Source: Croceivirga sp.
Lineage (GTDB): Bacteria; Bacteroidota; Bacteroidia; Flavobacteriales; Flavobacteriaceae
Assembly (NCBI GenBank): GCA_028284285.1
Contig: JANQSA010000061.1
Location: forward strand, 1-64,000
DNA length: 64,000 bases
Reading direction: 5' to 3'
In this document: in pieces, positions 13,124 through 24,970 of the stretch
Numbering within the stretch: position 1 is the stretch's first letter
Layout: every line of letters starts with the position of its first letter
The notes under the pieces: model-generated
Database searches by the model: none
What the model was told of the DNA's origin: nothing
The model's input: the letters and a program-made list of their open reading frames with translations, nothing else
Translations under genes and position numbers: made by a program

Positions 13124-14707
13124 ATGGACAATGCCCTACCAATCTTTCAGTACTTAAAAGCCAAACAGATTGCCATTGACCAAGAAGAATTTAGTTTTCA
13201 ATTTAAATCACATCCGGATTACCCTTCCTTATTGGCCATAAGTGATACTTTACATTTTTTTAATGTTGCCAGCCTGGCAGTCAAGGTAGCTTCATCGGAC
13301 CTCGAATTATTGCCAGACGCTTTTGTAGCCCATTTGAAAAGAGACAATAAGAGTTTCCTATCTTTTCTTAAAAGGAAAGGAGATTCCTATCGCTTTTTGG
13401 ATGAAGCGACCCAAAAGGTAGTTTCGGTATCAAAAGAAAAAATTACGCCAATATGGGGGGAAGTGGTCTTGTTGTTAGAAAACGAAGGTGACGTTATCAC
13501 TGACAAAACGAAAAAAGGCCCTAATTTTTTTCTTACGGCCCTCTTTATCTCCCTGCTTGCCATGCTGTTGTATGGCACCTTTTCTAACTTTTGGATACTT
13601 TCATTTTACGTTTTTCCGATTATCGGGTTCCTGCTTTCAATCGCAGCCTTAAAGGATTTGTTCAATACAAAAAATGAGCTATTAAAGAAGTTATGCCATG
13701 CCACACTATCTTCCGGTTGTGAGACCCTTGCCCATTCTTCAAAATGGAAAATATTGGAAAAGGTTAGTTTCAGCGACCTGAGCATAACTTTTTTTGCTAC
13801 CCAAATCGTTTCCCTAGTTCTTATGGGGCTCACCAGGAGCTATTCAGAATATTTTACGGTCCAGGCAGTACTATTGCTTTTGTCGGTTCCCGTAATTGCG
13901 CTTTCCCTGTACTATCAAAAGTTTGTAGAAAAAAAATGGTGCCCCATTTGCCTGTCAATAATCGCAGTAGTGCTCCTTGAGTTGCTTTATGTTTTTGCGT
14001 TCAGCACTTTTTTGATCGCAGAAATAAGGGGGTTTCCCATACTACTGTATCTTTTTGTTTATGTAGCTATACTAATGTTTTGGTATCCGCTACGAACCCT
14101 CTTTGAAAGGATCAATCACTTAAAAAAAGAGCAGCTTAAAGCAAATCGTTTTAAAAGAAACTATGCGCTTTTCAAGAATACTTTAATTTCAAAACAAAAA
14201 TATAGCATACCTCAAAACCCCATTGTACTGGGGAACAAAAGTGCCCCCATAAGGATTGACATTATTACAAGTCCTTATTGCAGCCATTGTACCGAACCTT
14301 ACTATCTCCTAAAAAGACTTCTAAAAAAATACGAGGAACACCTGGCTGTGGCTGTCATGTACAATGTGAATATGAGACAAGGCAAAGGGGAGAATCTAAA
14401 GTCTTTGCTTAGAAATCTGTTACATACAAAACTGAAAAAAGGGGACGATGCTTTTAACACGGCAATGGAAGACTGGCTCCAACATAAGAATCATGAAAAA
14501 TGGCTGGCAAAACACAATGGAGTAACCCATTCCGGAGAAATAGATTTGATCCTGGACACCCAATACAAATGGTGCAACGACAATAGCTTTCATTTCACCC
14601 CTTGTGTATTTATTAATGGATTTCAATATCCCGATACTTACGAAATCTCCGATTTACCATTTTTTATAGATGAATTAATAGAAGACCCCAGCCTTCAAAA
14701 TAGATAG
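13124..14707 (+). CDS. Fused C39-like / vitamin K epoxide reductase / thioredoxin-fold protein, predicted disulfide maturase
   Basis: Three modules in 527 residues. The N-terminus (1-120) resembles a C39 peptidase-like domain but lacks the catalytic Cys. Residues 135-330 are a multi-pass VKOR-like membrane domain with a Cys191/Cys199 pair (CHATLSSGC) and a C273-P-I-C276 active site. Residues 355-520 are a DsbA/thioredoxin-like domain with C386-S-H-C389 and a TP turn (FTPCVFING). VKOR passes electrons from newly made disulfides to quinone, and the thioredoxin domain oxidises the substrate. It opens the locus, 52 bp before the first six-cysteine peptide gene, so the peptides are the obvious substrates. 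This resembles the BdbA/BdbB role in sublancin operons, here in one chain. The substrate assignment is inference. Confidence 0.88.
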   Translation: MDNALPIFQYLKAKQIAIDQEEFSFQFKSHPDYPSLLAISDTLHFFNVASLAVKVASSDLELLPDAFVAHLKRDNKSFLSFLKRKGDSYRFLDEATQKVVSVSKEKITPIWGEVVLLLENEGDVITDKTKKGPNFFLTALFISLLAMLLYGTFSNFWILSFYVFPIIGFLLSIAALKDLFNTKNELLKKLCHATLSSGCETLAHSSKWKILEKVSFSDLSITFFATQIVSLVLMGLTRSYSEYFTVQAVLLLLSVPVIALSLYYQKFVEKKWCPICLSIIAVVLLELLYVFAFSTFLIAEIRGFPILLYLFVYVAILMFWYPLRTLFERINHLKKEQLKANRFKRNYALFKNTLISKQKYSIPQNPIVLGNKSAPIRIDIITSPYCSHCTEPYYLLKRLLKKYEEHLAVAVMYNVNMRQGKGENLKSLLRNLLHTKLKKGDDAFNTAMEDWLQHKNHEKWLAKHNGVTHSGEIDLILDTQYKWCNDNSFHFTPCVFINGFQYPDTYEISDLPFFIDELIEDPSLQNR

Positions 14708-14759
14708 CGGAAGTCGAAAAGCTAAAATAGAGTAGACATAACGTAATCAATGTTTTATC

Positions 14760-14978
14760 ATGAAAAAAATCAGTTTTAAGCAGTTAAAGGAATCCTTGAC
14801 CAGAAGTGAAATGCGAATGATTGTCGGTGGCGGCAGTACGGGAAGGGATTACTATGAAATGAGATGTGCCGATGGATTCAACTGGCGGGGTTTGAACGAT
14901 TGTGGTCCGTCCTATGACCACCTATGTAGCGGTCGCGGGGGTGTAGTATGCTGCGCCGTTGAGGACACCGGTTGTTAA
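14760..14978 (+). CDS. Double-glycine leader peptide precursor 1, six-cysteine core
   Basis: A 72-residue precursor. Residues 1-24 form a leader (MKKISFKQLKESLTRSEM, then a GG at 23-24) of the type cut by C39 peptidases; the LKESLTRSEMRMIVGG segment resembles Bacteroidota natural-product precursor leaders. The core of about 48 residues has cysteines at 36, 48, 56, 64, 65 and 72, giving spacing C-x11-C-x7-C-x7-CC-x6-C, and ends in Cys. The even number suggests three disulfides. It lies between the maturase and the second copy and is matched by an exporter with a C39 domain downstream. The biological activity (bacteriocin, signal or toxin) is unknown. Confidence 0.85.
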   Translation: MKKISFKQLKESLTRSEMRMIVGGGSTGRDYYEMRCADGFNWRGLNDCGPSYDHLCSGRGGVVCCAVEDTGC

Positions 14979-15149
14979 TAGTAGTTCTGGGTATTTCAAA
15001 TGTAAACTGCACTGCCATATTAAAGCCTCATCTACTTTAAAGAAACTACCTCCAAATAGATGAATTACTAGCAAACCGCAGTATTTAAGATGAATAGCGG
15101 AAGCCGAAAAGCTAGAATAGAGTAGGCATAATGTAATCAATGTTTTATC

Positions 15150-15368
15150 ATGAGAAAGATCAGTTTTAAGCTGTTAAAGGAATCCTTAACCCGAAATGAA
15201 ATGAGATCCATTGCCGGTGGTGGCAGTACCGGTATGGATGTTTATGAGATCAGATGTGCCGATGGAACGCTCTCGCGGGGTTTATCCAGCTGTAGCCCAT
15301 CCTTTTACCATATCTGTGATGGTCGTGGGGGAGTAGTATGCTGTGCCCTGGAGGACACTATTTGTTAG
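15150..15368 (+). CDS. Double-glycine leader peptide precursor 2, six-cysteine core
   Basis: A tandem paralogue of the previous gene, 72 residues, with 52 identical positions in a gapless alignment. Leader (MRKISFKLLKESLTRNEM with GG at 23-24) and all six cysteines (36, 48, 56, 64, 65, 72) are conserved, as is the GRGGVVCC segment. Differences cluster at residues 40-57, between Cys36 and just after Cys56, as expected if the loops set target specificity. The same 60-bp leader precedes its ATG. A hairpin at 15376-15405 follows directly, so the two peptides may end a short transcript that is read through at low level into the genes below. Confidence 0.85.
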   Translation: MRKISFKLLKESLTRNEMRSIAGGGSTGMDVYEIRCADGTLSRGLSSCSPSFYHICDGRGGVVCCALEDTIC

Positions 15369-15375
15369 GGATAGT

Positions 15376-15405
15376 ATAGGGCACTTTACTTTTAAAGCGC
15401 CCTAT
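15376..15405 (+). terminator. Hairpin after the precursor genes (terminator or attenuator)
   Basis: Stem ATAGGGC/GCCCTAT continued by CTTTA/TAAAG across one A-C mismatch, with a four-base loop CTTT. The following T tract is short (TTTA), so termination may be partial. That would give high peptide expression relative to the downstream glycosyltransferase and exporter genes. Confidence 0.6.
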
Positions 15406-15477
15406 TTACGCCTGATTCATTCTAATAAAACAATTAACAAATCATTTATTGAATACTAAAGGCAACACTACTTTGTT

Positions 15478-16668
15478 ATGCAAAAAATACTTTTAATAAC
15501 ATGTTACTTCGGTAAATTTCCCTGGTATTTTGGCTTGTTCTTAAAATCATGCCGCTACAACCCAACCGTAGATTTTATCATTTTTTCGGATTGTGCGGTA
15601 CCCGATCATCTCCCCGAAAATGTCAAAATAGTTCCGTTTACCCTGAAGGAATTCAACCTTCTGGCCACAGAAAAACTCGGCTTTGAGGTAAACATTAGCA
15701 GTGCCTATAAGCTATGCGATTTTAAGCCGGCGTACGGCGTAATTTTTTCGGAGCAAATAGAGGCCTACGCTTTTTGGGGCATGACCGATATTGATATTGT
15801 ATTTGGAAGGATACGGGAGTTTATGACCGATGATCTACTCACTACCTATGATGTTATCTCGGTTAGAAATGATTATCCTACGGGATCTTTTATGTTGTTC
15901 AAAAATAACAGCAAGAACAATACGCTTTTTATGAAAAGTAAAGACTATAAAAAAGTATTTATGACGGACACACATTATTGTTTTGATGAGTGCAATTTCC
16001 GTCATCGTCTTCTACAGGAAGGGGAAGATATTTTTGCTGTTGATTGTGAAATAGAAAGTATGCACCATGTGATTAAGAAAGAGGAAAAGAAAAACAATTT
16101 GAAAGCCCATTTCGATTTTTTGGTCATTGAGGGGTTACCCGGTCAGATGAAGTGGGATAAGGGCATACTCTCATTTAAAAACGAGTTTGAAGTTTTGTTG
16201 TATCACTTAATTCTTTACAAGGCGAACAGGTATACCAGAAAAAAGGAATGGGAATGTATTCCCGATACATTTTATATTGATAGTTATCTGATCAGGCGAA
16301 ACAAGCCCAATCGACTAACAGGGTATTTTTTGAATACCTGGTACAATCGCATAGGCCCCCGTTTAAAGAAATCGCTCTTTAAATGGGATCATTACTTCTC
16401 TAAGAAGCTGAATATTAAAGCAAAAGGAATAAAAACCGGTACCTATGAATTAAGTAGATTTAGTATCGAAATTTGCGAAAACTCAGTACATGAAAATCAG
16501 GTGTACTACAAAAATTCGGAATTTTTAGAGATGGTCAAATCCATAGTATTCCGAAACAGTTTTTTTATTCAATCGTTCCCTACCCGAAGATATCGGTTCA
16601 ATGAAAAGAAAAACCGCCTGGCTGAGTATTGTGTGAGTGGGGATATTCGCATTTTAAGTAAGGCCTGA
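15478..16668 (+). CDS. DUF6625-like putative glycosyltransferase
   Basis: A 396-residue cytoplasmic protein without signal peptide. It begins with a Rossmann-like strand (KILLITCYFGKFPWYFGLFL) and carries an acidic FWGMTDIDIVFG motif at about 100-110, resembling the DxD metal and nucleotide-sugar motif of GT-A enzymes; DECNF near 182 could supply a further acidic residue. I recall this arrangement from proteins labelled DUF6625, often in polysaccharide or peptide loci, but cannot confirm it. Here it lies between the peptide genes and the exporter. Glycosylation of the six-cysteine peptides before export would be the glycocin logic. That role is inference; it might instead act on a cell-surface glycan. 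Confidence 0.65.
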   Translation: MQKILLITCYFGKFPWYFGLFLKSCRYNPTVDFIIFSDCAVPDHLPENVKIVPFTLKEFNLLATEKLGFEVNISSAYKLCDFKPAYGVIFSEQIEAYAFWGMTDIDIVFGRIREFMTDDLLTTYDVISVRNDYPTGSFMLFKNNSKNNTLFMKSKDYKKVFMTDTHYCFDECNFRHRLLQEGEDIFAVDCEIESMHHVIKKEEKKNNLKAHFDFLVIEGLPGQMKWDKGILSFKNEFEVLLYHLILYKANRYTRKKEWECIPDTFYIDSYLIRRNKPNRLTGYFLNTWYNRIGPRLKKSLFKWDHYFSKKLNIKAKGIKTGTYELSRFSIEICENSVHENQVYYKNSEFLEMVKSIVFRNSFFIQSFPTRRYRFNEKKNRLAEYCVSGDIRILSKA

Positions 16669-16752
16669 AAACGTTTCCAACACGTCACCACCTTTGAACA
16701 TCTTTACAACATATCATGACCCTTGATATCAGGTGTATTTGTTAAAATTGGA

Positions 16753-16845
16753 ATGGCCGCAAGTCTGGTGATCTTGAACCCCTCGGTTATGTTCTATTTG
16801 CGGTACTACAACTTCAGAACTATGATCAAACTCTTTTTGAATTAA
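16753..16845 (+). other. Possible 30-residue hydrophobic micro-ORF between the GT-like gene and the exporter
   Basis: An ATG-initiated frame of 30 codons reads as one short hydrophobic helix followed by basic residues (MAASLVILNPSVMFYLRYYN, then FRTMIKLFLN). It ends 47 bp before the exporter start. It could be a tiny membrane or immunity peptide, a relic, or chance. No ribosome-binding site is evident. The rest of the 16669-16892 gap shows nothing. Confidence 0.2.
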
Positions 16846-16892
16846 TAAAACAAGAATCGATTAATCCGCCCTATTTAAAAGTAACAGGTGAT

Positions 16893-19094
16893 ATGTTTCG
16901 CAATAACTTTTTTCCTTTTTACAAACAGACAGAAAGCAAAGATTGCGGACCTACTTGTATAAAAATAGTGGCCAAGCACTATAACCGGAATATTCCTATC
17001 CAGGAACTACGAGGGTTAAGTGAAACTACACGGCAAGGCAGTAATTTATTAGGGTTGAGTGATGCTGCAGAAAAAATAGGTTTTCGCACCCTGGGCGTGA
17101 AAATCACTTTGAAGAAGTTATGGGAGACGCCTTTACCCTGTATTTTACACTGGAACAAAAACCATTATGTTGTTCTATATAAAATAGGCAAGGACACCCT
17201 TTTCACTTCGGATCCGGCACACGGGCTGCTAAAATTTACCAAAGAGGAATTTCTTAAATCCTGGATTGGTAATAATGCAAACGAACACACAAAAGAGGGT
17301 GTAGCCCTAATTATGGAGCCCACCCCAAAATTTTATGATACAGATTTTGATACTGGGAAAACCAAAAATCTAGGGTTTTCCTATTTGTCAAAATATGTGT
17401 TACGCTATAAGTCCTTTCTATGGCAATTGGTCATTGGTCTTAGTACCGCAAGTCTATTGCAGCTCATTTTTCCATTTTTAACCCAAAATATTGTTGACGT
17501 TGGCATAAAGAATCAGGACATCCATTTTATTTATTTGATTCTTTTCGCCCAATTGGCACTTTTTATAGGAAGAACCGCCATTGAGGTATTGCGAAGCTGG
17601 ATTCTGCTGCATTTGAGCATGCGAATTAGTATTTCTTTGGTTTCTGATTTTTTTATAAAGCTGATGAATCTTCCTATCTCGTTTTTTGATGTGCGGTTGA
17701 CCGGAGATATTTTACAACGCATTAACGATCACGGGCGTATAGAGAGCATTCTGACGACCTCGTCATTGAACGTGTTATTTTCTATGGTAAACCTAATTGT
17801 TTTTAGCATTGTCCTAATATATTACAGCGTTCAGATTTTCGGAATATTCCTTATCGGGAGTGTATTGTATCTCCTTTGGATTGTCATTTTCTTAAAGAAA
17901 CGCAGGGATTTGGATTATAAACGTTTCTCGCAAGTAAGTCAGGAACAAAGTAAGGTTATAGAACTTATTAACGGGATGCAGGAAATAAAACTGCACAATG
18001 CGGAAAAACAAAAACGATGGAACTGGGAATTTTTACAAGCAAGATTGTTTAAAATCTCTATTGAAGGCCTGGCCCTGGAACAGTATCAAAGCGTGGGCTC
18101 AGGATTTATCAATGAGTTTAAGAATATTCTTATTACGGTCCTGTCTGCCAAATTGGTGATTGATGGCGAGATAACACTGGGTATGATGCTGGCTATCTCC
18201 TACATCGTGGGGCAATTAAACTCTCCCATCGCGCAACTTATAGGTTTCGTTCGGCAATTGCAGGACGCAAAAATTTCACTGGACCGGCTTTCGGAAATAC
18301 ACAACAAAGAAGATGAAGAACGGGTAGGGGACGAAAAGATCACGGAATTACCTAAGAATTCAGACATTACACTTCGTAACCTATCCTACAGATATCCCGG
18401 ATCCGATCAATTGGTTTTAAAAGATGTCAACCTACATATTCCCGCCAATAAGGTTACCGCCGTGGTTGGTGTAAGCGGAAGCGGTAAGACTACTTTGATG
18501 AAGCTATTATTGCGGTTTTACGACGCTTTTACAGGAGAGATTAAAATTGGGAGCAATACATTGACCAATGTATCTCAAAAGAAATGGAGGAGTGTCTGTG
18601 GCGTGGTAATGCAGGAGGGGTATGTTTTTAATGATACCATTGCCAATAACATTGCCGTTGGAGTGGATCATGTGGATAAAAAGAAAATGGCCCATGCCGT
18701 GGATATTGCCAATATCCGGGAGTTTATTGAATCCTTGCCGCTATCGTATAACACAAAAATAGGGATGGAAGGTGTTGGATTAAGCACCGGTCAAAAACAA
18801 CGTTTGTTGATTGCAAGGGCGGTATATAAAAATCCGGACTTTTTATTTTTTGATGAAGCAACAAGCGCATTGGATGCTAACAATGAAAGAGAGATTATGG
18901 AAAAACTGGACTTTTTTTTCAGAAACAAGACCGTTGTTGTTATTGCGCACCGCTTGAGTACTGTTAGAAATGCGCACCAAATAGTAGTGTTGGATGAAGG
19001 AAAAATAGTAGAAGTTGGCCACCATTGTCAGTTGGTTGAACAAAAAGGGGCTTACTTCGATTTGGTTAAAAATCAATTGGAACTTGGGAAATAA
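16893..19094 (+). CDS. Peptidase-containing ABC exporter (C39 peptidase, membrane domain, ATPase)
   Basis: A bacteriocin-type exporter that removes double-glycine leaders and pumps the core across the inner membrane. The 733 residues contain a C39 peptidase (1-140; catalytic Cys18 in KDCGPTC, His in KNHYVVLY, DPAHG), a six-helix transmembrane domain (about 165-450) and a nucleotide-binding domain (from about 490). The latter has Walker A GVSGSGKTTL, signature LSTGQKQR and Walker B FLFFDEATSALD. All catalytic residues are present. Its end overlaps the HlyD adaptor gene. The two peptides with GG leaders upstream are the evident substrates. Confidence 0.95.
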   Translation: MFRNNFFPFYKQTESKDCGPTCIKIVAKHYNRNIPIQELRGLSETTRQGSNLLGLSDAAEKIGFRTLGVKITLKKLWETPLPCILHWNKNHYVVLYKIGKDTLFTSDPAHGLLKFTKEEFLKSWIGNNANEHTKEGVALIMEPTPKFYDTDFDTGKTKNLGFSYLSKYVLRYKSFLWQLVIGLSTASLLQLIFPFLTQNIVDVGIKNQDIHFIYLILFAQLALFIGRTAIEVLRSWILLHLSMRISISLVSDFFIKLMNLPISFFDVRLTGDILQRINDHGRIESILTTSSLNVLFSMVNLIVFSIVLIYYSVQIFGIFLIGSVLYLLWIVIFLKKRRDLDYKRFSQVSQEQSKVIELINGMQEIKLHNAEKQKRWNWEFLQARLFKISIEGLALEQYQSVGSGFINEFKNILITVLSAKLVIDGEITLGMMLAISYIVGQLNSPIAQLIGFVRQLQDAKISLDRLSEIHNKEDEERVGDEKITELPKNSDITLRNLSYRYPGSDQLVLKDVNLHIPANKVTAVVGVSGSGKTTLMKLLLRFYDAFTGEIKIGSNTLTNVSQKKWRSVCGVVMQEGYVFNDTIANNIAVGVDHVDKKKMAHAVDIANIREFIESLPLSYNTKIGMEGVGLSTGQKQRLLIARAVYKNPDFLFFDEATSALDANNEREIMEKLDFFFRNKTVVVIAHRLSTVRNAHQIVVLDEGKIVEVGHHCQLVEQKGAYFDLVKNQLELGK

Positions 19095-20376
19095 ATTAAA
19101 AGATATTGAATTGCGAAGTGAAGAAGTTCAGGAGATCTTGACCAATGTTCCCCATTGGATGATACGCTGGGGCAATCTGCTGTTTCTTTCACTGGTGATA
19201 CTGCTGCTCGCTATTTCATGGTTTGTTAAATATCCCGATGTTATTCAGTCAGAGGCACTGATCACCACTCAAACTCCTCCGCAAAGGGAATACGCCAAGA
19301 TCACCGGAAAAATAGATGCTATACTCGTTGAGAACAATGAGCAAGTAGGTGTCAATCAGCCTCTGGCGATAATTGAAAACACGGCAAATCATCATGATGT
19401 GTTTACATTAAAAGCCATCGTGGATACCATTAGGATAAACAACAAATACTTCAGTTTTCCAATGGATAGTTTGCCTGTTCTGTTTTTAGGGGATATTGAA
19501 TCGCATTATGCTCTATTTGAGAACAGTTATATTCAATATCAACTTAACAGAGAATTAGAACCTTTTTCCAATGAAGTATCGGCCAATACATATGCTATCT
19601 CGGAGTTGCATAGAAGACTAAAAAGCCTTCAATCCCAAAAGGAGATCTATACAACGGAATTGGATTTTATAAACAAAGATTTAGCCCGTAATCAAACGCT
19701 GTATGAAAAGGGAATAATATCTGCCCAGGAATATGAGAACAAACAATTAGCGTATGCTCAGGCCAAGCGGAATTTTGAAGATTTTGAGGCTTCCATTTCT
19801 CAAATTCGGGAGGCCATAAGTAATGCCCAAAAAACAGCAAGAGGAACCGAAATTGATAGAGTGAAGGAGGAGATGACACTACTTAAAAATGTTATTCAAT
19901 CCTTCAATCAGCTCAAAAAAGCCATTAGGGATTGGGAAAACCAGTATGTGCTGCAATCCAGGGTAAACGGAAGGGTATCCTTCCTGAATTACTGGAATGT
20001 GAACCAAACCGTAAATCAGGGAGATTTGGTATTTACCATTGTATCATACGATAATTCCTCTTTTATGGCCAGATTAAAAACGCCTCCGGAGAATTCGGGT
20101 AAAATAAAAATAGGGCAGAAGGTGAATATCAAACTGGAAAATTACCCGGATGCTGAATTTGGGGTATTAACAGGAAGCATAAAAAGCATCTCTTTAATTC
20201 CGGATAATGAAGGATTCTATCATATCGATGTAAAATTGCCCGTGGAACTTGTTACCTCCTACGATAAGAAGCTCGATTTCAGACAGGAAATGACCGGTGT
20301 TGCAGAAATCATTACAGAGGATCTACGGCTTATTGAACGTTTCTTCTATCAACTTAGCCAAGTGTTACAACGATAG
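19084..20376 (+). CDS. HlyD-family periplasmic adaptor of the peptide exporter
   Basis: The membrane-fusion subunit that links the ABC exporter to an outer-membrane channel. A TTG at 19084 gives a chain of about 430 residues starting (M)GNKLKDIELRSEEVQ, which looks more natural than the ATG at 19015 inside the exporter gene. An N-terminal transmembrane helix (LLFLSLVILLLAISWFV) is followed by a biotinyl-lipoyl half-motif, a long coiled-coil hairpin (about 160-290) and a beta-barrel (VNGRVSFLN, FTIVSYDN). It overlaps the exporter by 11 bp, so the two are translationally coupled. The outer-membrane factor is not encoded here. Confidence 0.92.
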   Translation: MGNKLKDIELRSEEVQEILTNVPHWMIRWGNLLFLSLVILLLAISWFVKYPDVIQSEALITTQTPPQREYAKITGKIDAILVENNEQVGVNQPLAIIENTANHHDVFTLKAIVDTIRINNKYFSFPMDSLPVLFLGDIESHYALFENSYIQYQLNRELEPFSNEVSANTYAISELHRRLKSLQSQKEIYTTELDFINKDLARNQTLYEKGIISAQEYENKQLAYAQAKRNFEDFEASISQIREAISNAQKTARGTEIDRVKEEMTLLKNVIQSFNQLKKAIRDWENQYVLQSRVNGRVSFLNYWNVNQTVNQGDLVFTIVSYDNSSFMARLKTPPENSGKIKIGQKVNIKLENYPDAEFGVLTGSIKSISLIPDNEGFYHIDVKLPVELVTSYDKKLDFRQEMTGVAEIITEDLRLIERFFYQLSQVLQR

Positions 20377-21136: not shown

Positions 21137-21389
21137 GTCATCATATCAATAGTAGCTGCTCGGTATAAAGCTAATTCTAAAATCGGAGAATCAGGGGATC
21201 GATTAAGAACTCTGTTTAGATGAAGAGATCCAAAGTGCGTATCTAAATACTATTTCCAGTTTGCAATAAAAGCAACTACTACTCCTTTGCACACAGTCGT
21301 ATCGGGTTTTTCTACTGTTAATATTATGATAAACAAAAATGATACGTTTAATCTTTTTTTAAATTCGTTAAACATTAATGCAGACATTC

Positions 21390-22223
21390 ATGAAATCCTT
21401 TCTCCTCAAGTTAAGTTGCCTTGCTTTCATTTTTTTGATGTCCTTTACATCAAATGCCCCGGAATTTCAAGGTCAGGCTATCTACTTTTCAAAATCTACA
21501 CTTGAATTAGGCAGATGGGGCGCACGAATGAGTGAAGCACAGAAAAAACAGGTGAAAGAGCGATTAAAGAACCGTCTGGAAAAGACCTATATCCTTAATT
21601 TTAATAAAGAAGCTTCCGTCTTCAATGAAGAAGAAAAACTAGATGCGATGTCCGGTGCTACCGACTCATGGGGTAAGAATTTCGCGCGTGGGGAACAATA
21701 TAAGAATGTCAAAGAAGACGCTTTGGTTCAAACCCAGGAATTTTATGGAAAACGATTTTTGGTGAAGGATAGGTTACAAACATTTAACTGGAATATGGGT
21801 TCGGAGACCAAGCAAATTGGTACGTATACCTGCTTCAAGGCATCTGCTTTGGTGCCCACTGATGAGCTAAGCTGGTTTGATTTTTCATGGGGTAAGTTGA
21901 GAAGGCAACAAGCGCAACAAACAGATACTACAACTACCGGGGAACCACAGTTTGATATGACCCAGGTGGTGGCCTGGTACACCCCGCAAATACCTGTGGC
22001 CCATGGCCCGGCTGAATTTTGGGGTTTACCCGGACTCATTTTGGAGGTGAATACCGAAACCACCACAATTCTTTGTTCCAAAATTATCATGAACCCTGAC
22101 AAAGTCCTTAAAATTGAAGCTCCGGACAAAGGGAAAATAGTGTCAAAGGCGGAGTACCAGACTACGGTTATGGGGAAGATGAAGGAAATGCTCGAAAACC
22201 GTGGCCGGCGAAGAAGCCGATAG
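21390..22223 (+). CDS. GLPGLI family protein
   Basis: A periplasmic or outer-membrane-associated protein of a Bacteroidota-specific family named for its motif, here WGLPGLILEV at about 215. The start at 21390 gives a clean signal peptide (MKSFLLKLSCLAFIFLMSFTSNA). The family function is unknown; members are usually followed by a TonB-receptor-like beta-barrel with a carboxypeptidase-regulatory domain, exactly as seen here. The gene ends 75 bp before the frame of that barrel as marked, and the true gap may be smaller because the barrel's signal peptide extends upstream. Confidence 0.88.
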   Translation: MKSFLLKLSCLAFIFLMSFTSNAPEFQGQAIYFSKSTLELGRWGARMSEAQKKQVKERLKNRLEKTYILNFNKEASVFNEEEKLDAMSGATDSWGKNFARGEQYKNVKEDALVQTQEFYGKRFLVKDRLQTFNWNMGSETKQIGTYTCFKASALVPTDELSWFDFSWGKLRRQQAQQTDTTTTGEPQFDMTQVVAWYTPQIPVAHGPAEFWGLPGLILEVNTETTTILCSKIIMNPDKVLKIEAPDKGKIVSKAEYQTTVMGKMKEMLENRGRRRSR

Positions 22224-22297
22224 ATCTACCTTGAGTTCTGATCTCCACTAAGCACATACGACTTTTTTTAGGTGCCTGCACCTTCTTTTTAACTGTA

Positions 22298-24970
22298 TTG
22301 GGTTATGGCCAAATCAAATTGGAAGGGGTGGTTCGCGACAGCCTTAACAATCCCCTGGAACTGGCCAATATTATTGCCATTAATCAGGCCACTAATGCCA
22401 TGACCTCTTATGGCATTACCAATGATTCCGGTACCTTTCAAATTCAATTAGAGAACAACGGTACCTTTCAAATTCAAGTGAGTTACGTGGGCATGAAGAC
22501 CTTAAAGGAGGTGATAACCACTACAACGGAAGACATTTACAAAGAGTTTACGTTGTCCCCGGAAAATGCTCTTGAGGGAGTAGAATTAGTATATGACATG
22601 CCTGTCCAAATCAAGGGAGATACCTTGATATACAATGCTGATTCTTTCCAGGACGGCACAGAGCGAAAACTGGAAGATGTACTGGAAAAACTCCCCGGTG
22701 TTGAAATTAATGAAGACGGTCAAATTGAAGTAGAAGGGAAGGTGGTGAATAAATTAATGGTCAACGGCAAGGATTTTTTTGACGGCGATACCAAATTGGC
22801 CTCAAAGAACATTCCGTCAAAAGCAGTGGATAAAATTCAGGTGTTACGCAATTATGCCGAAGTAGGGCAGTTGCGAAATGTGCGAAACAACCAGGATAAT
22901 GTAGCGTTGAATATAAAGCTAAAGGAAGGGAAGGAAAATTTCTGGTTCGGAGATATCACTGCCGGGGCGGGGGCCTCTCCGGACGACGCGCTCTATGTCT
23001 TGCAACCGAAGCTTTTTTATTACAGTCCTAAATACACCATAAATTTCATCGGAGATTTTAACAATACAGGAGAAGTTGCCTTGAATAGGAGGGATATCCG
23101 GAATTTTAGCGGGGGATTTCGTGTACCAAGCAGCAATAGCGGAACAGACCTAAGCCTTGGAAACAATGATCTGAATTTCCTTACCGATCAAAACAACACC
23201 CTGGAAATTGAAAGCAAACTGGCTACGGCAAACTTTAGTTATTCACCCACTGCTGCTTTAGATATCAGTGGCTTTCTCATTTACAGTAGCAGCAGGATAT
23301 TATCACGGGAAACCAGTTTTATCCAGTATACCGATCCCGATTTGGGTATACCTGACGAGGCCACCGAGCAATTGGGCCGCGAACGTTCTGAGGAAGGTTT
23401 ACTGAAACTTAGCGCATCCTTTCAGCCCAATTTTAATAATCAATTGGATTATGATGTGCTGGCCAGGTTATCTGATGACAGGCAGACGCAATTGGTAGCC
23501 TCATCGGTACTGGGAAATACCAGTCGCAGGGACGATTTTACCCCGGTAAGTATCCGTCAAAACCTGAATTATTACTACACTCTAAACGAAAACAACATTT
23601 TTGCTTTGGAGGCACAACATCTTGTAAAGGATGAGGATCCTTTTTACAATGCTATTGTAATCAACACTCCTGATACTACTGATGCTTTTGATGCTACTGC
23701 GGAAGCCTTGGGATTTGATAGCACACAGGCAGAATACAATTACGACCAGAACAGAAGGGTAAGATCTAACCAACTGGATGCAAAATTGGACTACTACAAT
23801 ATCCTTAATAAAAAGAGCAATTTAAACGTGACCTTAGGGGTAATTTTAAGCAGGCAAGAATTCAACTCCTCTATTTTTCAGTTTTTGGATGACGACGGTG
23901 TCCTGGCACCCACTCCAACGATTAATGAAGGAAGGGCGGAAAATGATACGGAATATAATTTCAGTGATTTTTATCTGGGGGTGCGCTATCGCGTAAAGAT
24001 GGGAAAGTTTACGCTCACTCCTGGGCTGTCTGCGCATGTATACGGGAATCAAAACACCCAGTTTGGGGTGACTTTTGAAGATAACTTTTTCAGACTACTG
24101 CCGGAATTCGAATCGCGAATTGATTTAAAGAAAAGCGAATCACTGACCTTACGATATACTATGCGGAACACCTTCACTGATGTTACCAGAATTGCCGAAG
24201 GATTGGTATTGAACAATTTTAACAATATCCAGTTTGGAGAGTCCGAATTGGAAAATGCGCTCTCACACAACATTAGCCTTTTGTACAACAGCTTTAATCT
24301 ATTCAATTATACCAATGTCTTTGCCCGGGCGGCGTATTCCAACAATATTGATCAAATCCGGAGTTTGACAGATTTTGAAAATGTGATCCGTACCGGTACG
24401 TTTTTTAATTCCAGCTTTGCAGATGAAACACTAAGCTTCTTTGGAAGGGTGCAGCGTACTTTTGGTAAAATTCAAGGCACCTTAAATGCAAGTTTTAACT
24501 ACAGTAAGATCAATCAATTCATTCAAGGACAGCGGTCGTTAAACGAAGGATTTACGCAAACCTATACACCAGGCATACGCACTAATTTTAAAGTGGCTCC
24601 CAATGTTACCTTCAGGTATCGTTACAGCATCACCAACAACAATCAGGGCGGTGGGGAAACCCGGTTCGTGACCAATGCACCATCCGTAGATTTTGACGCC
24701 TATATCTGGAAATCAGTAACGCTGCGTTCAAACTACACCTTCACTAACCAGGACCTGGGCGATGGCAATTCACAATCTTTCCAAAACTGGGACGCTTCTT
24801 TGGCTTATAGAAAAGACCGGGATGCCAAATGGGAATATGAGATCAGGGCCACCAATATTTTGGATATTGATGCTCAGGTGAGGAACAGCGCCAACGACAT
24901 ATCCGTATTCACCTCGGAAACTTTTATCCAACCCAGGTTTCTGACGTTTAGAATCATCTACACGCTATAA
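22298..24970 (+). CDS. Outer-membrane beta-barrel with carboxypeptidase-like regulatory domain (TonB-receptor-like)
   Basis: About 890 residues: an N-terminal CarboxypepD-regulatory beta-sandwich (KLEGVVRDSLNNPLELANI), a plug-like region (LEDVLEKLPGVEINEDGQIEVEGKVV) and a long C-terminal beta-barrel ending in the aromatic FRIIYTL. It belongs to the SusC-like outer-membrane group usually paired with GLPGLI proteins; the substrate is unknown. The marked start is a TTG inside the signal peptide. The frame is open further upstream and encodes a good signal peptide (RLFLGACTFFLTVLGYGQ), yet has no ATG, GTG or TTG there. A rare start (CTG or ATC near 22240) or a start-codon mutation is possible. 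Confidence 0.88.
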   Translation: MGYGQIKLEGVVRDSLNNPLELANIIAINQATNAMTSYGITNDSGTFQIQLENNGTFQIQVSYVGMKTLKEVITTTTEDIYKEFTLSPENALEGVELVYDMPVQIKGDTLIYNADSFQDGTERKLEDVLEKLPGVEINEDGQIEVEGKVVNKLMVNGKDFFDGDTKLASKNIPSKAVDKIQVLRNYAEVGQLRNVRNNQDNVALNIKLKEGKENFWFGDITAGAGASPDDALYVLQPKLFYYSPKYTINFIGDFNNTGEVALNRRDIRNFSGGFRVPSSNSGTDLSLGNNDLNFLTDQNNTLEIESKLATANFSYSPTAALDISGFLIYSSSRILSRETSFIQYTDPDLGIPDEATEQLGRERSEEGLLKLSASFQPNFNNQLDYDVLARLSDDRQTQLVASSVLGNTSRRDDFTPVSIRQNLNYYYTLNENNIFALEAQHLVKDEDPFYNAIVINTPDTTDAFDATAEALGFDSTQAEYNYDQNRRVRSNQLDAKLDYYNILNKKSNLNVTLGVILSRQEFNSSIFQFLDDDGVLAPTPTINEGRAENDTEYNFSDFYLGVRYRVKMGKFTLTPGLSAHVYGNQNTQFGVTFEDNFFRLLPEFESRIDLKKSESLTLRYTMRNTFTDVTRIAEGLVLNNFNNIQFGESELENALSHNISLLYNSFNLFNYTNVFARAAYSNNIDQIRSLTDFENVIRTGTFFNSSFADETLSFFGRVQRTFGKIQGTLNASFNYSKINQFIQGQRSLNEGFTQTYTPGIRTNFKVAPNVTFRYRYSITNNNQGGGETRFVTNAPSVDFDAYIWKSVTLRSNYTFTNQDLGDGNSQSFQNWDASLAYRKDRDAKWEYEIRATNILDIDAQVRNSANDISVFTSETFIQPRFLTFRIIYTL

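Follow-up and report, generated by a model that had tools for sequence, protein, structure and literature searches.

A DUF6625 protein of predicted glycosyltransferase fold in a putative maturation and export cassette for two cysteine-rich peptides of Croceivirga sp.

The window analyzed here, a stretch of 64,000 nucleotides, is contig 24 of the 4.82-Mb genome of Croceivirga sp. (Flavobacteriaceae). Six genes, all on the plus strand and spanning positions 13124-20376, encode a membrane fusion protein with VKOR and thioredoxin domains, two six-cysteine peptides (A and B) with leaders ending in GG, a protein of family DUF6625, an ATP-binding cassette (ABC) exporter with a C39 peptidase domain and an HlyD-family adaptor, as a sequence-only reading of this DNA had listed them, with the DUF6625 protein as a GT-A-like protein with a DID motif. 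The block is real and more than a chance arrangement, which was confirmed by the ratio of nonsynonymous to synonymous substitution rates (dN/dS) of the peptides, by the behavior of a leader model on reversed DNA and by the recurrence of the gene set in other genomes. The DUF6625 protein was modeled with the fold of GT-A glycosyltransferases, and in the simplest reading it would be a tailoring glycosyltransferase for the exported peptides; we consider glycosylation of the peptides by this protein likely. That the block is a dedicated maturation and export cassette for the two peptides is nearly as well favored.

The DUF6625 protein and its linkage to peptide cassettes

The DUF6625 protein matched PF20330 with 216 bits, against a gathering cut-off of 27. 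An AlphaFold2 model built on 54 rows had a predicted local distance difference test score (pLDDT) of 96.3 and a predicted template modeling score (pTM) of 0.91, and the two aspartates of the DID motif, D104 and D106, are the same in all 54 rows. The best solved matches in Foldseek (E about 1e-5, probability 0.99-1.00) were human ABO transferases, glycogenins, a bacterial histo-blood-group transferase and LARGE1; among the 50 matches listed, TM-scores by query length were low (0.23-0.33). The ABO transferases belong to glycosyltransferase family 6 (GT6) and the glycogenins to GT8. The model thus has a GT-A glycosyltransferase fold with a DxD motif, as the sequence-only reading had supposed, and the protein is predicted to be an enzyme. 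It has no transmembrane (TM) segment. Pfam at E ≤0.1 gave no GT2 match and, besides DUF6625, only a sub-threshold DUF3973 match, and no sequence relative was present in the PDB at E ≤0.2. Among the open-license papers searched, where absence is a weak indication, none names DUF6625.

Scanning contigs with six long DUF6625 proteins yielded 66 named loci (L numbers below) from 80 candidate stretches, and cassettes with DUF6625 occur in Flavobacteriaceae, Weeksellaceae, Chitinophagaceae, Sphingobacteriaceae, Balneolaceae and one Paludibacter bin. We labeled 88 DUF6625 proteins from 75 loci by their neighbors within 10 kb, where a score of 600 bits for the exporter, 100 bits for the fusion or 14 bits for a leader sufficed for the cassette label, and placed 87 of them in a tree (one 600-residue row was omitted). 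An exporter, fusion or leader peptide was present in 34 of the 41 loci of the main DUF6625 branch, compared with 1 of 35 elsewhere; the latter is a second copy in L051, which is counted in both groups. The Chryseobacterium loci L075, L076 and L091, which form the outermost twig, were counted outside, and with them inside the counts become 34/44 and 1/32. The main-branch loci contained a C39 exporter in 28 cases, the fusion in 24, HlyD in 26 and a leader peptide in 28. Along the tree the cassette label changes 9 times, against 29.3 times in shuffles, and none of 500 shuffles was as low. Seven branch loci lack the label (L039, L044, L045, L054, L070, L071 and L073), of which L054 still has a C39 exporter by Pfam and GG peptides, and L039 a GG peptide without cysteines. 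Two to four DUF6625 copies occur in 7/41 branch loci, adjacent in L041, L042, L052, L058 and L074 and apart in L061 and L068. In a Pfam scan that took in part of the neighbors, from DUF6625 and comparison loci, a glycosyltransferase of another family scored over its cut-off in L047, L048, L051, L060 and L063 (5 of 60 neighbors scanned), and a sixth such locus, L067, came from ten further neighbors.

A less circular test used a model of 27 leaders and DUF6625, both searched in the same 395 genomes of the phylum. Leaders at E ≤1e-6 were found at 13 places in 7 genomes, and DUF6625 lay within 10 kb on the same contig at 11 of these places, in 6 genomes. When the two genomes with leaders in the model were excluded (our own and G587, the source of L057), DUF6625 was near strong leaders in 4 of 5 genomes; G560 is the weaker case among these four, its leader heading a 283-residue frame. 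A fusion gene adjoins each of the two strong-leader places that lack DUF6625, one in G635 and the other the second such place of G594. Weaker leader matches occurred in 23 genomes, none with DUF6625.

The sequence-only reading had proposed co-occurrence in other Bacteroidota as a check, and peptides without exporter or maturase as counter-evidence. The neighborhood does recur, and such a counter-example is seen once among the close relatives: in L036 (genome G377), peptide and DUF6625 stand together with neither exporter nor fusion nearby, a 74% identical exporter being located elsewhere in the genome. Of the family's 397 genomes, 3 (our own included) contained the peptide, 16 DUF6625 and 55 the fusion protein, the last at 72 places at least, since a maximum of three candidates per genome was scored. 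By hand comparison, 3 of the 72 listed fusion places have DUF6625 in their vicinity. We examined 20 other fusion places: a C39 exporter and HlyD lay within 7 kb in 14 of them, and all 20 had small open reading frames (ORFs) of leader type, 63 in total and mostly with the leader LGKxLxKxEQKxINGG. Within the family the oxidation-export cassette is thus common, with DUF6625 as a rarer addition in a subset.

Further copies are found in the same genome. Contig 36 (L111:3257-10756) holds a second cassette with a fusion, a four-cysteine GG peptide, an exporter (63% identical), HlyD and a DUF6734 protein. The latter has 539 residues with H-V-D-G-D-V invariant in 3 rows and may be another peptide-modifying glycosyltransferase; DUF6734 also occurs near DUF6625 in L042 and L044, and no homology between the two families was detected. 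A third fusion place, on contig 82 (L110:8779-10673), has a six-cysteine peptide of knottin spacing and no exporter hit in the stretch. Elsewhere in the family, nineteen different cysteine-rich leader peptides surround one fusion/exporter/HlyD set (L121:13-8974, G320). A TlpA-type thioredoxin protein lies near peptides in L037:8800-9990 and in 17 further hits, some from overlapping stretches; it also occurs in some loci without DUF6625 and was not seen in the block of the window.

Some DUF6625 loci have other partners. In Flagellimonas oceanensis (L046:5619-11212), DUF6625 is encoded beside LanC-like and lantibiotic dehydratase C-terminal proteins, possibly a cluster for a glycosylated lanthipeptide. 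A Flavobacterium locus (L062:9992-17682) combines DUF6625 with a Tox-MPTase2 protein, seen in L062 only, a C39 exporter and HlyD; the layout is similar in L064 and L068, and in loci of this type the DUF6625 protein, as a candidate glycosyltransferase, may also serve larger exported proteins. The long frame of G560 (L140) carries a leader of the DUF6625-linked type. Six-bladed propeller proteins (DUF5128) lie near SRxEM-type peptides in L057, L135-L137, L139 and L143, from Balneolaceae and other Bacteroidota, L143 being the same region as L057.

Precursor peptides and the fusion protein

Peptides A and B are 72% identical, and because 60 of 70 upstream bases are also identical, they probably arose by tandem duplication. 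The leaders of 24 residues have hydrophobic residues at positions -4, -7 and -12 (I, M and L in A), the latter two positions being common to most substrates of such exporters (PMC12457901). With 22.5 bits for A and 16.8 for B, the leaders resemble TIGR04149 and fall short of its cut-off of 25. The dN/dS was 0.26 between A and B and 0.13 for each of them against the Ulvibacterium copy, and the peptides behave as real, constrained genes under purifying selection. The leader model detected 53 ORFs at ≥10 bits and none on reversed DNA; in a second round the numbers were 57 and 1. For the peptide counts, we used ORFs of up to 140 residues found by leader models at ≥12 bits, after discarding those that shared more than 60 bases with a long ORF. 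Both cores in the window start with G-S-T-G and have the cysteine order C-C-C-CC-C. Against the PDB, the cores of A, B and L036 gave a single chance match (E 1.7), and Pfam at E ≤0.1 matched the leader of A to Mersacidin with 12.9 bits and gave nothing for B.

The segment that follows the leader is a candidate sugar site. A Ser occupies core position 1 or 2 in 41 of 47 peptides from DUF6625 loci and in 6 of 63 controls; with GG-type leaders only, the counts were 9/12 and 0/39. This suggests, and does not prove, that the Ser/Thr-Gly segment could accept the sugar. As a mark exclusive to DUF6625, Ser at +1 (36/47 versus 5/63) looked clean at first and is weakened by L130 and L135-L137, which have it without DUF6625. 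An even number of cysteines is found in 42 of 47 peptides from DUF6625 loci and also in 53 of 63 controls, so that the DUF6625 loci are not special in this respect, and cysteine-free peptides occur in L072 and L039, the latter GG-type and Ser-rich. Because of these cysteine-free peptides and the mostly even numbers, which leave no obvious free cysteine, S-glycosylation is disfavored and O-linkage appears the better candidate.

Among related cores with six cysteines, knottin spacing occurs in 7 of 34 from DUF6625 loci and in 7 of 29 controls, whereas shuffled cores gave means of 0.4 and 0.3 and at most 3 in 2000 rounds; the counts include near-copies, and the spacing limits were set after a first look. 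A profile of six Pedobacter and Mucilaginibacter cores retrieved knottins from the PDB, with a best E of 3.6e-6 over two repeats of one chain and 7.8e-5 for the best single-domain chain; the 36 chains listed are mostly knottins by name, with exceptions including hydrophobins. Pfam knottin toxin families matched below cut-off in cores of L060, L063 and L067, and by their sequences the cores of these three loci appear related to solved, eukaryotic knottins. This likeness does not yet say anything about a target. The window cores are not knottins, having C-C-C-CC-C instead of C-C-CC-C-C and no solved relative in the PDB. A potato-inhibitor-like spacing, defined post hoc, was seen in 5 of 34 cores (at most 1 in shuffles), and its PDB profile was not significant (best E 0.16). 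We found no report of bacterial knottins in the open-license papers searched, which is weak evidence of absence.

The fusion protein matched VKOR (E 2.6e-8; 34.5 bits against 27.5) and Thioredoxin_4 (E 1.7e-5) in Pfam. Its Peptidase_C39 match (E 0.0027) stays below the 22-bit cut-off and covers profile positions 27-130 only, without the end that bears the catalytic Cys; in a two-sequence alignment with the exporter C39, the fusion domain has neither Cys nor His at the catalytic places. The AlphaFold2 model (pLDDT 82, pTM 0.62) is of low confidence around residues 181-210, and Foldseek retrieved DsbA-like proteins and the peptidase domains of PCAT1 and ComA. Because the fold is ComA/PCAT1-like and the catalytic Cys and His are missing, we propose that the degenerate C39-like domain is a leader-binding part. 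The redox cysteines, C191/C199 and C273/C276 of VKOR and C386/C389 of the DsbA-like domain, are conserved in all 50 fusion proteins compared (24 from DUF6625 loci, 20 from loci without DUF6625 and 6 others). The redox pairs are intact, which supports the sequence-only reading.

An extra TM helix (residues 132-152) precedes the VKOR bundle, and in all 50 fusion proteins the redox side carries more positive charge. In the 24 proteins, the mean number of Lys plus Arg residues was 4.29 in loop 1-2 with the redox pair (37 residues), 2.54 in loop 3-4 before the CxxC (9 residues) and 5.67 in the segment to the DsbA domain (20 residues), compared with 0.21 in loop 0-1 (4 residues), 0.21 in loop 2-3 (3.6 residues) and 0.33 in loop 4-5 (9.4 residues). 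Per residue this is 0.12-0.28 on the redox side and 0.04-0.06 on the other. The redox loops of a single canonical VKOR, a fragment ending just past TM4, carry 1 positive charge in 39 residues and 0 in 10; that protein stands in for DsbB in the periplasm of E. coli (PMC12453122). Because the positive charges sit on the redox side, it is plausible, and moderately favored, that all three parts, C39-like domain, VKOR active site and DsbA-like domain, face the cytoplasm, and from this distribution we predict leader-guided oxidation before export. The sequence-only reading had oxidation and quinone coupling fused in one protein; the domains are indeed there, and the location is revised to a probably cytoplasm-facing one. 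Proteins of L056 (11915-12925) and L059 (11904-12929) consist of C39-like and DsbA-like domains; in them no TM window reached the usual threshold and no signal peptide was evident. One active-site Cys is replaced in them, and they are possibly leader-binding chaperones.

Proposed pathway and alternatives

In the pathway we propose, the membrane-bound fusion would hold the leader with its degenerate C39-like domain while its DsbA-like domain closes the three core disulfides, electrons passing via VKOR to quinone; this would take place at the cytoplasmic face, folding preceding export. The DUF6625 protein, as a cytosolic GT-A-type enzyme, would add sugar to the precursor, most likely O-linked in the Ser/Thr-Gly segment after the leader; here fold and genomic linkage are computed, and from them we infer substrate and site. 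The exporter C39 domain would then cut after GG, and judging from the protein families the core would leave via ABC and HlyD to an outer-membrane channel encoded elsewhere. The product would probably act on related bacteria, which is the weakest step, and an antibacterial function, argued by analogy, is a guess that could go either way.

It is rather improbable, in our estimate, that DUF6625 does not act on the peptide and decorates an envelope glycan or lipid (e.g., for self-protection) or is a bystander. Such a role would agree with the sugar, acyl or sulfo transferases beside DUF6625 relatives in L030, L032 and L034, which lie outside the main branch, were scanned in part and look polysaccharide-like, and with the existence of the fusion/exporter/peptide set without DUF6625 at nearly all listed fusion places. 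These two observations weigh against peptide glycosylation, as do several others. DUF6625 is present in 15 of the 395 phylum genomes, of which 9 have no leader match; SRxEM-type leaders also occur without DUF6625 in L112 and L130-L138; and G594 has one such leader with DUF6625 and one without. SRxEM-type peptides without DUF6625 carry the early Ser, by hand count, in 5 of 7 AG-type cases (including L112) and 1 of 9 GG-type, so the Ser signal is partly due to the leader or cleavage site, and the 63 control peptides mostly belong to one other leader family, so descent confounds that comparison. Against the proposed pathway as a whole, neither an immunity gene nor an outer-membrane channel was identified in the block (13124-20376). 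On the other hand, DUF6625 is tied to one leader type in genomes outside the model, the pair in L036 persists without its usual neighbors, and the L046 locus links the family to another kind of peptide-modifying protein. We therefore retain peptide glycosylation as the preferred role of DUF6625.

With a periplasm-facing fusion, as in known bacterial VKOR-DsbA proteins, disulfide formation would follow export. Oxidation usually takes place in the periplasm, and a Clostridium VKOR-DsbA fusion substitutes for DsbA and DsbB in that of E. coli (PMC12453122). The charge rule can also fail in VKORs, positive charges lying outside as well in human VKOR (PMC11208910), and our comparison involved loops of unequal length and one canonical control. 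Against this orientation, which we judge unlikely, stand the opposite charges in all 50 fusion proteins, a flip that the extra N-terminal TM helix would explain, and the TM-free proteins in which C39-like and DsbA-like domains are also joined. Moreover, a periplasmic leader-binding domain would meet no leader, as the exporter peptidase cuts inside. One form of the Aeropyrum pernix VKORs is reportedly inverted. A precedent for VKOR action in two compartments in this organism is given by a title cited in PMC12453122.

The product might also be a signal or a peptide with a non-bacterial target instead of a bacteriocin, a possibility that we place below the antibacterial guess and somewhat above the periplasmic orientation. 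The failure to see an immunity gene, the purifying rather than diversifying selection between the compared copies and the knottin-like nature of some related cores, eukaryotic knottins having many targets, are in line with it; against it, the closest system from Bacteroidota with a tested function that we saw, the bacteroidetocins, kills Bacteroidales (PMC6671954). Quite improbable is an ordinary class II bacteriocin-like cassette, akin to those of bacteroidetocins, in which the glycosyltransferase has no role: GG-leader peptide, C39 ABC exporter and thiol oxidoreductase are shared, but the VKOR fusion, HlyD, DUF6625, the 24-residue leader and the six cysteines differ, and the linkage data also speak against it.

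The predicted pathway would give DUF6625, a family without an assigned function, a concrete and testable role as a peptide glycosyltransferase. It would also have a peptide acquire its disulfides with the leader still attached, at the cytoplasmic side of the membrane, an arrangement that is unusual for bacteria and simple to test, and it connects an export cassette whose fusion protein is present in 55 of the family's 397 genomes with a large pool of six-cysteine peptides, some knottin-like. A doubtful extension is that Bacteroidota widely secrete disulfide-knotted peptides, some of them bacterial knottins. An inverted VKOR-DsbA protein, guided by the leader and coupled to quinone, would fold these peptides in the cytoplasm, where DUF6625 would glycosylate them before their export in folded, sugar-bearing form. 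DUF6625 would then be a new peptide glycosyltransferase family, sometimes acting with further glycosyltransferases that build a glycan.

Block layout and known systems

The coordinates of the block are given in Table 1. The exporter has the domain make-up of PCAT proteins (C39, ABC membrane and ATPase domains by Pfam; Peptidase_C39 E 1.5e-34), and the Cys and His of its C39 domain as well as both Walker motifs (A and B) can be read in its sequence, in agreement with the intact active site first described; its NCBIfam relatives score below their cut-offs. The HlyD adaptor likewise matches TIGR01843 (E 4.9e-33) below cut-off. Its listed start, TTG 19015, is probably too early, and TTG 19084, giving 430 residues, is preferred because the closest homologs measure 430, 434 and 432 residues (L037, L038 and L040). 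Ten proteins from around the block were scanned with Pfam, and none matched radical SAM. Two minus-strand ORFs separate the block from a GLPGLI-family protein, which is encoded downstream on the plus strand and is followed by an 890-residue CarboxypepD_reg protein with a sub-threshold TonB-plug match (21378-24970).

Table 1. Features of the six-gene block, in window coordinates.
Feature	Position	Strand	Basis or detail
Fusion protein, 527 residues: degenerate C39-like domain, extra TM helix, VKOR, DsbA-like thioredoxin	13124..14707	+	Pfam, AlphaFold2, Foldseek
C39-like domain without catalytic Cys/His, proposed leader binder	13169..13483	+	Pfam Peptidase_C39, 18 bits; alignment with exporter C39
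VKOR domain, C-x7-C pair and CPIC	13610..13993	+	Pfam
DsbA-like thioredoxin domain, CSHC	14216..14671	+	Pfam, Foldseek
Precursor peptide A, 72 residues	14760..14978	+	Leader 14760-14831; 48-residue six-Cys core 14832-14975
Precursor peptide B, 72 residues, probable tandem duplicate of A	15150..15368	+	Leader 15150-15221; core 15222-15365
DUF6625 protein, 396 residues, GT-A-like, long form with C-terminal beta domain	15478..16668	+	PF20330, E 1.1e-63
DID motif of the DUF6625 protein	15787-15795	+	D104, D106
Peptidase-containing ABC exporter, 733 residues: C39, TM domain, ATPase	16893..19094	+	Pfam
HlyD-family adaptor, probable true start TTG 19084	19015..20376	+	Pfam HlyD_3, E 2.7e-13

Several known systems share parts of this make-up. 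The window leaders resemble the precursors of TIGR04149 (GG_sam_targ_CFB) at scores under its cut-off, with no radical SAM match in the ten proteins scanned. Known VKOR-DsbA fusions have the same C-x7-C and CxxC VKOR joined to a DsbA-like domain, whereas the window fusion has in addition a TM helix and an N-terminal C39-like domain and sits in a peptide cassette. Knottins are alike to the related Pedobacter and Mucilaginibacter cores in profile and cysteine spacing and differ from the window cores. The excerpts of a survey of ribosomally synthesized and post-translationally modified peptides in Bacteroidales mention glycosyltransferases in some clusters, and in these excerpts VKOR, vitamin K, thioredoxin and DUF6625 are not mentioned (PMC10352776). 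In the open-license papers searched, again a weak basis for absence, we found none joining VKOR, C39, precursor peptides and Bacteroidetes.

Bacteroidetocins, for which class IIf was proposed, also come from Bacteroidota and have a Cys-containing GG-leader peptide, a C39 ABC exporter and a thiol oxidoreductase, deletion of which weakens activity (PMC6671954). Their four genes encode a five-TM protein, the peptide, the thiol oxidoreductase and the exporter, and the excerpts of that paper list no glycosyltransferase or HlyD; the leaders have 15-16 residues compared with 24 here, and bacteroidetocins A and B have four cysteines compared with six. With its longer leader and no separate gene for a five-TM protein between 13124 and 20376, the block does not belong to this group.

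Glycocins use glycosyltransferases of family GT2. The sequence-only reading saw in the block a functional counterpart of their loci, and as an analogy of gene roles this is fair: sublancin, glycocin F and thermoglycocin loci likewise cluster a leader-bearing precursor, a glycosyltransferase, thioredoxin-like proteins and a C39 exporter, and the cores are disulfide-rich, with three disulfides in thermoglycocin (PMC12457901). The exporter of the block has a C39 domain and the leader has the usual GG context, at which cleavage is predicted. In contrast, the putative glycosyltransferase here is a DUF6625 protein with a GT6/GT8-like fold and no GT2 match, cysteine numbers are mostly even, and the VKOR fusion and HlyD are additional; PDB and Pfam searches, rather than a direct comparison, revealed no relation between glycocin cores and the window cores. 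Membership is rejected on the type of glycosyltransferase, as judged by Pfam and fold rather than by direct comparison with SunS or GccA, and cysteine parity also speaks against it. The cassette is close in logic to glycocin and bacteroidetocin loci and a member of neither group.

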